Shown here: positions 12,801 to 45,676 of the stretch, one piece after another
How the letters are laid out: each line of letters starts with the position of its first letter
Numbering within the stretch: position 1 is the stretch's first letter
Assembly (NCBI RefSeq): GCF_000178955.2
Contig: NC_016631.1
Location: forward strand, 1,922,001-1,986,000
Origin: Granulicella mallensis MP5ACTX8
GTDB lineage: Bacteria; Acidobacteriota; Terriglobia; Terriglobales; Acidobacteriaceae
Direction of reading: 5' to 3'
Length of the DNA stretch: 64,000 nt
Made by a program: the position numbers and the translations under genes
Notes under the pieces: generated by a model
What the model saw: only the letters and a program-made list of their open reading frames with translations
Told to the model about the DNA's origin: nothing
The model's database searches: none

Positions 12801-13018
12801 GTCATCCTGAGCGAAGTCGTTCGCGTGCTTTGCGAACTACGCAGTCGAAGGACCCCGAGGGGCTTGGCCTCACCCAGGCAGTCGGGATCTTTTCCAGCAC
12901 GGAAGTTCAGGCTCGAACGCTTGAGGTAGAAAAGGGGCGAAGGGTATAGGCATGATGGCACCCTCGGGGTCCTTCGACTCCGCGTCCCCAAAGGCTGGGA
13001 CGCTCCGCTCAGGATGAC
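12801..13018. repeat. dispersed inverted repeat family A, copy 1
   Basis: The element starts GTCATCCTGAGCGAAG and ends CTCCGCTCAGGATGAC, so the termini are inverted repeats. A second inverted pair lies inside (GTCGAAGGACCCCGAGG and CCTCGGGGTCCTTCGAC). The central segment (TTTTCCAGCACG... to ...GAGGTAGAAAAGG) is shared with the other copies. It fills the 320-bp spacer between the GMC oxidoreductase and the aldo/keto reductase. Short ORFs inside it are not genes. Confidence 0.9.
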
Positions 13019-15415: not shown

Positions 15416-15638
15416 GTCATCCTGAGCGAAGTAGTTCGCGTACTTTGCGAACTACGCAGTCGAAGGACCCCGAAGGACTTGATCTCGCCCATGACGTTGG
15501 GACCTTTTCCACCGCGAAAGTCCGGGGCTGGAACGCTTGAGGTAGAAAAGGGGCGAAGGGTACAGGCAGGATGGCAATCCTCGGGGTCCTTCGACTCCGC
15601 ACCTCGCAAAAAGCGCGAGGCGCTCCGCTCAGGATGAC
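15416..15638. repeat. dispersed inverted repeat family A, copy 2
   Basis: Same layout as copy 1: GTCATCCTGAGCGAAG at the left, CTCCGCTCAGGATGAC at the right, and internal GTCGAAGGACCCCGAAGG against CCTCGGGGTCCTTCGAC. The right sub-terminal region carries a nested small hairpin (CACCTCGC AAAAAGCGCGAGGCG type). It fills the spacer between the convergent NRAMP-like and Nudix genes. The flank to about 15700 ends in GATTTCGCTCTAGA, which also flanks copies 3 and 4, so the repeat extends about 60 bp outwards. Confidence 0.9.
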
Positions 15639-24293: not shown

Positions 24294-24512
24294 GTCATCC
24301 TGAGCGGAGCGTCCCAGCTTTTGGGGACGCGGAGTCGAAGGACCCCGAGGGGTGACCTCTTGCCTATGCCCTTTGGAGCTTTTCTACCTCGAGCGCTCGT
24401 GCCTGAACTCTCGTGCGGGAAAAGATCCCGACCTTCTGGGTGAGATCAAGTCCTTCGGGGTCCTTCGACTGCGCACCTCGCAAAAAACGCGAGGCGCTAC
24501 GCTCAGGATGAC
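24294..24512. repeat. dispersed inverted repeat family A, copy 3 (inverted)
   Basis: GTCATCCTGAGCGGAGCG at the left and CTACGCTCAGGATGAC at the right, with internal GTCGAAGGACCCCGAGG and CCTTCGGGGTCCTTCGAC. The central conserved segment is in the opposite orientation to copies 1, 2 and 4. The left flank (24233-24293: TAGAGCGAAACCAA to CCCCACAGAATC) is closely related to the right flank of copy 4 read in reverse. It lies between the convergent GH3 and DHA2 transporter genes. Confidence 0.9.
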
Positions 24513-43287: not shown

Positions 43288-43511
43288 GCGGTCTTACGTT
43301 TCTCTGGGGTGTGCCGGTTCGTCGTGACCACCCTTACTTAATAGGGATGATCAACGGGGCGAACGGGTTGTGCGGTTACGGGTCTCTCCATTTTAGAGCG
43401 GTTTTGAGGCGAAGGTAGTGCAAATCGGGGTCCCCTGAAAGATTGGTCGCGAGACCAGGTGTGCCCGACGAACGGGGGATAACAACGAATCACATATTCC
43501 GCTTCCCCCCC

Positions 43512-43527
43512 ACAGAGACGTCATCCT
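43512..43527. repeat. left remnant of repeat family A copy 4, split by the IS110 element
   Basis: ACAGAGACGTCATCCT matches the left terminus and flank of family A (compare CCCCACAGAATCGTCATCCTGAGCGG in copy 3, i.e. the end GTCATCCT). The repeat stops abruptly at 43527 and resumes with CTGAGCGGAGCG at 44728, after the IS. Similarity to the flank of copy 3 can be followed left to about 43495 (TTCCGCTTCCCC). The spacer 43288-43494 between it and sixA shows no gene. Confidence 0.8.
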
Positions 43528-43534
43528 TGTATCT

Positions 43535-43720
43535 ATAAGTGAGCGACAGTGTTTGTAGGAGACTGTCGTAGAGGGGGGAACCGATGTATTGGTTCCCCCA
43601 CGGGCGGACGGCACCCGTTCATCCTGTGGTCTATTGACCGACGCTCAGCCCCGGGACCGCTGCCCAAGTCGCGCACGACCGAAGAGTCGCATGATTTCAG
43701 TCGCACATACAAGGCAGGTT
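43535..43720 (+). ncRNA. predicted IS110 bridge RNA
   Basis: Non-coding 5' region of the IS. A stem CGACAGT/ACTGTCG (43544-43550, 43562-43568) and a 9-bp perfect stem GGGGGAACC/GGTTCCCCC (43574-43582, 43591-43599) come first. A loop-like region then carries TCATCCT (43619-43625), identical to the left target with its core, a small hairpin GGTC-TATT-GACC, and CGCTCAG (43642-43648), complementary to the right target CTGAGCG. Further on, CAGTCGC (43698-43704) equals the right IS end and ATACAAG (43707-43713) is complementary to the left IS end with core (CTTGTAT). These are the four guides a bridge RNA should have. The donor guides sit close together, so that fold is less certain. Confidence 0.72.
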
Positions 43721-43723
43721 ACC

Positions 43724-44695
43724 GTGACACGCATGATTTGTGGAGTGGATATATCCTCAGCCTCTTTGGCGGTACGGATAGGCCGAGAGGGTGCAGCAGC
43801 CAGTTTTGCCAATACGGTGGAAGGCATCAGTGAGTTGGTTGCGTTCTGCCGGTTGCACCAGGTAGATCTGGTGGCGATGGAGGCCACCGGGGGCTACGAA
43901 AAGCAGAGCTTCGCGTTGCTCTCAGAACAGGGGCTGGCTGTGACCATCCTCAACCCGCGCGCGGTCCGTCAGTTCGCGCTCAGCATGGGGAGAGCCGAGA
44001 AGACCGATGCGATCGACGCAGGTATGATCGCCTGGTTCGCGGAGGTGAAGAACTCCCAGCCGATGTGCCTGTCGCCGGCCAGCCAGCATCACCTGCGCGC
44101 GCTGGTGACACGCCTGCGCCAGCTCACCGAGGTTCACACCGCTCAGCGCAACCAGCAGCGCCTGATCACCGACCCTGCCGTGCAGGCCTCGTTCACCGAA
44201 CTGCTGGCCGTAATCAACCGTCAGATCCGTGAACTGGCCGCAGCCATCGCGGCGTTACTAGCTGCCGACCCGCTCTGGAGCCAACTCGATCAGGCCTTCC
44301 GCACCATCAAGGGCGTGGCCGACCGCACCGTAGCGCGCCTCATGGCCGAGATGCCCGAGATCGGAACCCTGTCTAACAAAACCATCTCCAAGCTGGCCGG
44401 TGTTGCCCCGCTGGCCAACGACAGCGGTAAGCACCAGGGCAAACGCAGGGTGCGCGGAGGTCGTTCCTCTGTCCGCGAGATCCTGTTCATCGTTGCCAGC
44501 GTCGTTGGCCGCTACGAACCCGACTTCATCGCCTTCCGAGAACGGCTCGCCAACGCGGGAAAGCCTCCCAAAGTCATACGCATCGCCTTAGCTCACAAAC
44601 TGCTCGTTCGACTCAACGCAAAAGCCCGCGAAGTCCGATCTCAGTTCCTCCACTCTCAACCAAACCCCTCTTCCCAACAATCCATCACCGCATAA
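43724..44695 (+). CDS. IS110 family transposase (DEDD/RuvC-like plus serine recombinase domain)
   Basis: A 323-residue RNA-guided recombinase. The N-terminal RuvC-like DEDD residues are visible: Asp9 in CGVDISS, Glu53 in AMEATGGYE, Asp95 and Asp98 in KTDAIDAGM. The C-terminal Tnp domain has the catalytic Ser (about 234) in VAPLANDSGKHQGKRRVRGG. The GTG at 43724 is preceded by GGCAGG and comes just after the last predicted guide; ATG 43733 is also possible. A longer frame from 43589 would translate the bridge RNA and is rejected. Full length, so the element may be active. Confidence 0.9.
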   Translation: MTRMICGVDISSASLAVRIGREGAAASFANTVEGISELVAFCRLHQVDLVAMEATGGYEKQSFALLSEQGLAVTILNPRAVRQFALSMGRAEKTDAIDAGMIAWFAEVKNSQPMCLSPASQHHLRALVTRLRQLTEVHTAQRNQQRLITDPAVQASFTELLAVINRQIRELAAAIAALLAADPLWSQLDQAFRTIKGVADRTVARLMAEMPEIGTLSNKTISKLAGVAPLANDSGKHQGKRRVRGGRSSVREILFIVASVVGRYEPDFIAFRERLANAGKPPKVIRIALAHKLLVRLNAKAREVRSQFLHSQPNPSSQQSITA

Positions 44696-44727
44696 AATAC
44701 TCAGCTCTTGACAAAACAAGACAGTCG

Positions 44728-44938
44728 CTGAGCGGAGCGCCTCGCGCTTTTGCAAGGTGCGGAGTCGAAGGACCCCGAAAGGCTTGATCTTACCCATGAT
44801 GTCGGAACCTTTTCCAGTACGAAAGTCCGAGCTCAAGCGCTCGAGGTTGAAAAGGTGCAAGAGGTTTGGGCAAGAGATCAACCCTCGGGGTCCTTCGACT
44901 CCGCGTCCCAAAGGCTGGGACGCTCCGCCCAGGATGAC
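44728..44938. repeat. repeat family A copy 4, right portion
   Basis: Resumes at CTGAGCGGAGCGCCTCGCG and carries the internal inverted pair (GTCGAAGGACCCCGAAAGG and CCTCGGGGTCCTTCGAC), the central segment and the right terminus CCCAGGATGAC. Its right flank (44939-45000, ending GATTTCGCTCTACGA) is the reverse complement of the left flank of copy 3. It fills the gap between the IS and the convergent methyltransferase. Confidence 0.88.
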
Positions 44939-45028
44939 GATTCTGTGGGGAAGCGAAGAACAAAAGCTATGCGTTCAGCGAGCTTGATTTCGCTCTACGA
45001 TCAGGGCCTTCGACTCGTCAGACATTCC

Positions 45029-45676
45029 CTAGACGCGTCTCCAGAGCTCGGTATAGATCATCCCGAAGAGCCGTTCGTGTTTGTCAATGGCGATGAATCC
45101 CGCACGGGCTAACGATGCCTGGGGATCGGGCAGGCTCTTTACCCGCAATCCGGTAAGCAGGCGAAATGCCAGATATAGCGCGCGAATATAGAGCCGCGCC
45201 ATGGGACCTACAGCTCCTGATGGAACATGAAAGTCGGAGAGCAGCCAGAGCGTTCCGGGCTGTGCCTGCGCGGAGAGACGTTGGGTCAACTCGTCGACCT
45301 CGGCTTGCGTGAGGCAGTCGAGGAAGAAGTGCGTGACGATGAGATCGGTATCGCGACGCGGCGTTGCCGTGAGGGCGGATGCTTGTTGCACGCTTAGGCG
45401 GCCGCTCGCAAAGCCACAGCGTCTCTGGAGAAGTTGGAGCATTGTTGCGCTCGTATCGACTGCGAGTGCCTGCAGCAGCGGATTCTGCGCCAGAAGACGC
45501 GCCAGGAAGCGGCCATCGCCATCACCCAGGACAAAGGCGCTGCGGCGATCTGTGAGCTGCGGCAGAAGGTGGGTGCGCGTGTGCTGAAGCAGTGGGCCTA
45601 GCGAAAGATACTCGGCCCAGCGATAGAGGCGCGCGATGGGATCGAAGTTGGGTTTGCGTGGGGCTTCGAGATTCAT
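45029..45676 (-). CDS. class I SAM-dependent methyltransferase
   Basis: A 215-residue Rossmann-fold methyltransferase. SAM motif I is AFVLGDGDGRFLARLL (about 47-62), motif II acidic AVDTSATML (about 72-80) and motif IV TDLIVTHFFLDCL (about 115-127). The C-terminal half resembles small lipid/quinone-type methyltransferases (FHVPSGAVGPMARLYIRALY), but no substrate can be assigned. It is translationally coupled to the upstream membrane protein (ATGA at 45673). Confidence 0.75.
   Translation of the reverse strand: MNLEAPRKPNFDPIARLYRWAEYLSLGPLLQHTRTHLLPQLTDRRSAFVLGDGDGRFLARLLAQNPLLQALAVDTSATMLQLLQRRCGFASGRLSVQQASALTATPRRDTDLIVTHFFLDCLTQAEVDELTQRLSAQAQPGTLWLLSDFHVPSGAVGPMARLYIRALYLAFRLLTGLRVKSLPDPQASLARAGFIAIDKHERLFGMIYTELWRRV

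Follow-up and report, generated by a model that had tools for sequence, protein, structure and literature searches.

An IS110-group insertion sequence with a predicted bridge RNA in a dispersed palindromic repeat of Granulicella mallensis

The window analyzed here is a stretch of 64,000 nucleotides from the chromosome of Granulicella mallensis MP5ACTX8 (contig NC_016631.1, positions 1,922,001 to 1,986,000); coordinates are counted from its first letter, and features lie on the forward strand unless stated otherwise. One end of a palindromic repeat in this window holds a 1.2 kb insertion sequence of the IS110 group that runs from CT to CT at 43526-44729. This element almost certainly moves by bridge-RNA-guided recombination, as indicated by its insertion site, an RNA structure conserved in its left end, target guides that covary with landing sites, and a recombinase with its catalytic residues in place. 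The course of events is modeled on homology with IS621. Excision would yield a circle in which the junction of right and left ends forms a promoter, and this promoter would drive an RNA of about 190 nt from the left end. The RNA would bind the DEDD/serine recombinase, its first loop pairing with TCATC-CT-GAGCG, the target at one end of a dispersed palindromic repeat, and its second loop with the element's own joined ends (ACAGTCG-CT-TGTAT). Strand exchange at the CT core would then give a scarless insertion.

The mechanism is not new, because bridge RNAs of the IS110 group and repeat targeting by IS621 have been published (PMC11208160); the same paper reports predicted bridge RNAs in 85.7% of catalogued IS110s. 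A literature search, judged by titles, found no paper on this insertion sequence or its repeat, and a search for the exact target 13-mer also found none.

The insertion site and its match to the target guides

The insertion sequence occupies 43528..44727, between a left CT core (43526..43527) and a right CT core (44728..44729). The left target GTCATC (43520..43525) lies in the end of the dispersed repeat, and the guide pairs with TCATC, its final five bases. To the right are the target GAGCG (44730..44734) and the rest of the interrupted palindromic repeat (44730..44940). The empty site and CT core can be seen directly, because other repeats of this chromosome are uninterrupted, and their alignments to the two flanks overlap by 2 bp. 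In the nine listed, the left flank aligns up to 43527 and the right flank from 44728 (for example, chromosome positions 436595-436638 with 436637-436907). Since all nine match both flanks with the overlap at CT, the insertion was scarless. These alignments agree with an earlier note, made from the letters of the window, which had proposed an IS110 element inserted in a dispersed repeat between these two CT cores.

The exact 13-mer target, GTCATCCTGAGCG, occurs at 219 sites in the chromosome, as against none for its reversed control. It stands at both ends of the palindromic repeat, with both exact sites present in 15 of the 19 stretches examined (span 217-223 bp), and the repeat consensus is predicted to fold as one long hairpin. 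Within the rest of the interrupted repeat a second target site with one mismatch, TCATCCTGGGCG, is found on the reverse strand (44926..44937). The 13-mer is present in 25 of 26 sampled genomes of the same family (a count that includes the window's genome) and, across the phylum, in 95 of 247; the description of the repeat as of Acidobacteriota type thus holds for the target site. The palindromic repeat is common in the family, where a single sampled genome has as many as 274 exact target sites, and in the window it is seen at 12802-13017, 15417-15637, 24295-24511, and 44730-44940.

By coordinates, the element has non-coding ends of 196 nt on the left and 32 nt on the right. The left end contains the left target guide TCATCCT (43619..43625) and the right target guide CGCTCAG (43642..43648), the complement of CT-GAGCG. 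These strings, along with CAGTCGC (43698-43704) and ATACAAG (43707-43713), had been named in the earlier note, and all four lie where it put them. In 5000 dinucleotide shuffles of the left end, the two target strings never occur together in this order, and the single strings turn up in 19 (TCATCCT), 44 (CGCTCAG), 43 (ATACAAG), and 110 (CAGTCGC) of them. Covariation between guides and flanks is the stronger evidence, because the strings were picked after being seen.

Relatives for this comparison were drawn from genome contigs, whole genomes, and plasmids; their left ends and flanks were read, and each guide was compared with every flank. At E 1e-40 or better, a protein search of the phylum placed relatives in 8 of 396 genomes, counting that of the window, a plasmid search at E 1e-60 or better gave one record, from Rhizobium, and among viral contigs 5 stretches matched a pattern and none encoded a close relative. 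Flanks are shown for 14 of the 20 contig loci, omitting L063 and L066 (further Methylobacterium copies) and L073-L076 (30-37% identical). Six of those 14 were excluded from the covariation test, L070 and L071 as truncated and L061, L062, L064, and L065 as copies of L060. L113 is the sole representative of the copies in genome G536, L069 is without its right end, and its left flank recurs in L077. L030, whose genome carries the same family label as the window's, is identical over the element to L059 from Silvibacterium bohemicum.

Both target guides change together with the landing site. On the left, pairing with the own flank averages 0.72 versus 0.44 with the flanks of others (13 lineages including IS621); on the right the means are 0.96 and 0.45 (12 lineages including IS621). 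None of 200,000 permutations reaches the observed sum on either side. When the test is confined to the nine lineages with distinct targets, 2 of 50,000 permutations are as high on the left and 0 of 50,000 on the right. Covariation of the flanks with the two target guides had been set beforehand as a test of the bridge-RNA reading of the left end, and it was passed. L057, for example, has the target AGGCC-CT-CAGGA and guides that match it, Methylobacterium copies have CCACC-CT-CTCCC, and the Microvirga element has ...CC-CT-CACCC.

Several observations weigh against this reading. Among Acidobacteriota only (7 left and 6 right lineages), 1395 and 440 of 50,000 permutations equal the observed value. 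A lineage's own flank fits better than every other in just 4 of 13 cases on the left and 4 of 12 on the right; this is partly because lineages share targets, but some ties involve no common target, and the left guide of the window fits the flank of the Microvirga locus L072 equally well. On the left side of the window copy, five bases before the core pair and no more. The left guides of L127 (0.50) and L059 (0.57) fit poorly, and the lineages tested share ancestry.

Alternatively, chance or recognition of the DNA by protein may bring the element to the repeat, and the left-end matches may be coincidence or remnants of the target. The frequency of single 7-mers in the shuffles, the common ancestry of the lineages, and the weaker result within Acidobacteriota are in line with such an origin. 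It would leave unexplained, however, why guides track changed targets in L057, L059, L060, L067, L072, the L113 group, and L127 (right side) to a degree that no permutation equals, and why the RNA structure is kept by compensatory change (see below). This alternative is therefore very improbable, and target guides in a bridge RNA are the preferred reading of the left end.

Genome G536 has eight copies (L113, L114, L116, L118, L120, L122, L124, and L144). Their left flanks are variable and 7 of 8 have CACCC on the right, which suggests looser selection of the left target as judged from these flanks. L144 carries a frameshift.

The predicted bridge RNA and its donor guides

The predicted bridge RNA extends over 43541..43730, with its start placed from the -10-like element and its 3' end from the stem of the donor loop. 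By folding and comparison, its parts are, in order, an extra 5' hairpin, a 5' stem-loop, and the loops for target and donor. The extra 5' hairpin (43544..43568) is paired in 76.2% of cells, has 2 of 7 pairs changed on both sides, and falls in a gap in the IS621 alignment. Pairing is stronger in the 5' stem-loop (43574..43599), at 97.5% of cells with 8 of 10 pairs changed on both sides. In the target-binding loop (43602..43665), an outer stem joins 43602-43616 with 43653-43665 and an inner hairpin joins 43628-43631 with 43636-43639. The outer stem of the donor-binding loop (43668..43728) joins 43668-43680 with 43717-43728 and is paired in 93-100% of cells.

Compensatory changes among 12 distinct sequences support this structure. 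Across them, 89.8% of cells pair, and pairing falls to 29.5-48.5% when the partners are slid. Changes on both sides affect 18 of 46 pairs, compared with 8.4 in shuffles, and the covariation score is 0.266, compared with 0.125; neither value is reached in 500 shuffles. A covariance model built on the clade finds four RNAs in the chromosome, one per copy of the insertion sequence (150 of 1363 first-look candidates were scored). A strong match to the Rhizobium locus arises by construction, because L127 is in the alignment; the independent matches, L105 and L106, are weaker (32.7 bits, E 3.3e-7).

Other results are less favorable to the predicted RNA. One measure of structure gives a weaker result, since the number of further pair types is reached by 6 of 500 shuffles. 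The covariance model matches IS621 weakly (9.7 bits, E 0.36), and a permissive Rfam scan of 43400-45050 gave no bridge-RNA match, its sole match being MIR393, below the gathering score and located on the repeat's palindrome. For the inner hairpin of the donor loop there are two alternatives, and the 12 donor loops, folded as lone strands, give differing results. If 43693-43695 pair with 43700-43702, 80.6% of cells are paired and one pair has changed on both sides; if they pair with 43686-43688, 94.4% of cells are paired and no pair has changed on both sides.

The earlier note had proposed folding as a check that the guides sit in internal loops, and this was borne out in part. In the lone-strand fold of the window copy, 6 of 7 bases of the left target guide and 5 of 7 of the right are unpaired in an internal loop, and most bases of the right donor guide are also unpaired. 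The same minimum-energy fold pairs 43684-43688, five bases of the probable left donor guide, with 43693-43697, a point that again counts against the proposed arrangement. RNAalifold without the Alphaproteobacteria, like the window's own fold, places part of the left donor guide in a small stem; an RNAalifold consensus that included IS621 confused the registers of the alignment and was set aside. Two relatives have internal duplications in the bridge RNA, one of 18 nt in L072 from Microvirga (left end 2914-2949) and one of 85 bp in L056, an IS621 copy of Escherichia coli (left end 2474-2644).

Matches to the donor are present in the donor loop. The donor is nearly invariant, and so what evidence there is for covariation of the donor guides comes from Rhizobium and IS621. 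Of 13 elements with a right end, 11 carry ACAGTCG there (44721..44727 in the window), the sequence matched by the left donor guide; the Rhizobium element carries ATAGTCG instead and IS621 ACAGTAT. The most likely position of the left donor guide is 43683..43690. This segment reads AGAGTCGC in the window and ACAGTCGC in a 98% identical sister copy, L002, and the window has G at 43684, a mismatch to its own right end, where the sister copy has C.

The earlier note had instead put the left donor guide at 43698-43704, and there is some evidence for its choice. In the window, CAGTCGC at 43698-43704 matches the right end at 7 of 7 positions and 43684-43690 at 6 of 7, while L002 and L067 match at 7 of 7 in both places; the lone-strand fold of the window copy buries 43684-43688, and the better paired option for the inner hairpin takes up 43686-43688. 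Among the 11 rows with a known right end, however, the site at 43684 matches at 7 of 7 positions in 9 and the site at 43698 in 3. The rows that fall short at 43684 are the window copy and L003 (5 of 7). Moreover, where the right end has changed, in Rhizobium and IS621, the change is followed by the segment that aligns with 43683-43690 and not by the one at 43698-43704: Rhizobium has ATAGTCGC at the first site and still CAATCGC at the second. The left donor guide of IS621 also aligns with 43683-43690. A layout with all four guides exactly as first placed is thus improbable. Both target guides and the right donor guide keep their original positions, and 43683-43690 is the better fit for the left donor guide.

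The right donor guide is ATACAAG (43707..43713). It is not conserved as a whole, which is a further difficulty for the proposed layout; AAG is the part common to all rows compared (A1 and A4). Discontiguous pairing would fit this pattern by analogy with the right donor guide of IS621, which is reported to pair in that manner (PMC11208160).

A -10-like element, TATCTA (43530..43535), lies in the left end and a -35-like element, TTGACA (44708..44713), in the right end. In an excised circle they would be joined with an 18-nt spacer into a putative promoter. The motif TTGAC-17/18-TATC is present at the predicted circle junction of 10 of 10 left-end types examined, and it resembles in sequence the rebuilt promoter described for IS621 (PMC11208160).

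The recombinase and its relatives

The recombinase gene (43724..44695) encodes 323 aa from a GTG start. The protein matches PF01548 (DEDD RuvC-like; 72.4 bits, cut-off 29), PF02371 (C-terminal; 51.7 bits, cut-off 21.3), and the NCBIfam model NF033542, "IS110 family RNA-guided transposase" (174.3 bits, cut-off 140). D9, E53, D95, D98, and S234 are present and are invariant in 11 of 11 proteins in an alignment that includes IS621, in keeping with the earlier claim of a transposase with all catalytic residues. L067, with an interrupted recombinase frame (247 aa), was excluded from this alignment. The serine of IS621 is S241 (PMC11208158).

The start at 43724 is likely, as GTG stands at the recombinase start in 10 of the 11 sequences with a start codon shown (window included); the exception is IS621. 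The GTG lies within the 3' strand of the donor-loop stem (43723-43728), and therefore translation of the recombinase may be in competition with folding of the RNA.

The element has the features of the IS110 family typified by IS621, including both protein domains, the catalytic D/E/D/D and serine, a long left and short right non-coding end, and covariation of the target loop. In the IS1111 group the bridge RNA is in a long right end, whereas here the right end is 32 nt and the RNA model matches the left end. The closest solved relatives by sequence are ISCro4 (9t56, 5.5e-30) and IS621 (8wt6, 6.9e-28); for ISCro4, the best match, the recombinase alone was compared. The window element shares with IS621 a DEDD/serine recombinase (29% identity), a bridge RNA in the left end with 5' stem-loop, target loop, and donor loop in that order, the CT core, a near-identical donor (ACAGTnn-CT-TGTAT), the junction promoter motif, and insertion in palindromic repeats. 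It differs in its target repeat, its extra 5' hairpin, a shorter stretch between the donor guides, and its GTG inside the donor-loop stem, as IS621 has an ATG after the bridge RNA region.

A further likeness is to ISEc21 and other seekRNA-bearing IS110/IS1111 elements, drawn from published description rather than by sequence. That description (PMC11187229) includes an upstream non-coding RNA that matches both target strands in the IS110 type, a circle with a junction promoter, and movement with parts supplied in trans. The target of ISEc21 differs.

Sister copies and possible movement in trans

The chromosome has four copies of the insertion sequence (the window copy, L002, L003, and L004), all in GTCATC-CT-GAGCG. 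Identity to the window copy is 98% for L002 and, over the aligned part, 75% for L003 and 77% for L004. It is possible that the window copy is a decayed relic of IS110 origin, no longer functional here. Its mismatch at 43684 in the probable left donor guide and the frameshifted recombinase in 2 of 4 copies would be expected of such a relic. On the other hand, in the window copy and L002 the 323-aa frame is still open and encodes the catalytic residues, and the two copies differ at 9 of 1204 positions, one of which is 43684. So few differences suggest recent movement, as far as sequence can tell, and loss of function is unlikely.

L003 (5501647-5503154) and L004 (5729259-5730410, both in coordinates of their own genome) are 1251 bp each and differ at one position. 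They have the same recombinase frameshift, and their flanks are dissimilar beyond the repeat. Because copies at different sites have one frameshift and a 1-nt difference, the element appears to have been broken first and moved later. The recombinase acting in trans on the L003/L004 type would be an intact one, for example that of the window copy (about 75% identical DNA, same target guides and target). Slightly less than even confidence attaches to the proposal that a recombinase-dead IS110 element spread in trans in this chromosome, moved by a related intact recombinase and with its bridge RNA and ends still functional. There is precedent in the seekRNA study (PMC11187229), with movement when the RNA is supplied in trans for ISEc11 and ISEc21 and when transposase and RNA are both supplied in trans for ISEc11. 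Gene conversion between copies or a lost intact parent could also account for the pair, and it is possible that the frameshift is a translational one.

A bridge-RNA remnant, L139 (G526:C16:222445-222649), is found in GTCATT-CT in the genome that carries the Silvibacterium locus L059. It retains 49 nt of the recombinase gene and has no transposase match nearby, making it an orphan bridge RNA.

Taken together, the relatives form a natural data set on bridge RNAs, in which guides and landing sites have changed together within one clade, represented here in Acidobacteriota and Alphaproteobacteria, and the donor has stayed near-constant. They supply orthologues about 29% identical to IS621, a variant of the probable left donor guide (43684) beside a near-identical sister copy, and a candidate for natural mobilization in trans. 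If that mobilization is real, the frameshifted pair would represent a non-autonomous bridge-RNA element that arose in nature, akin to the mini-elements constructed in the laboratory.
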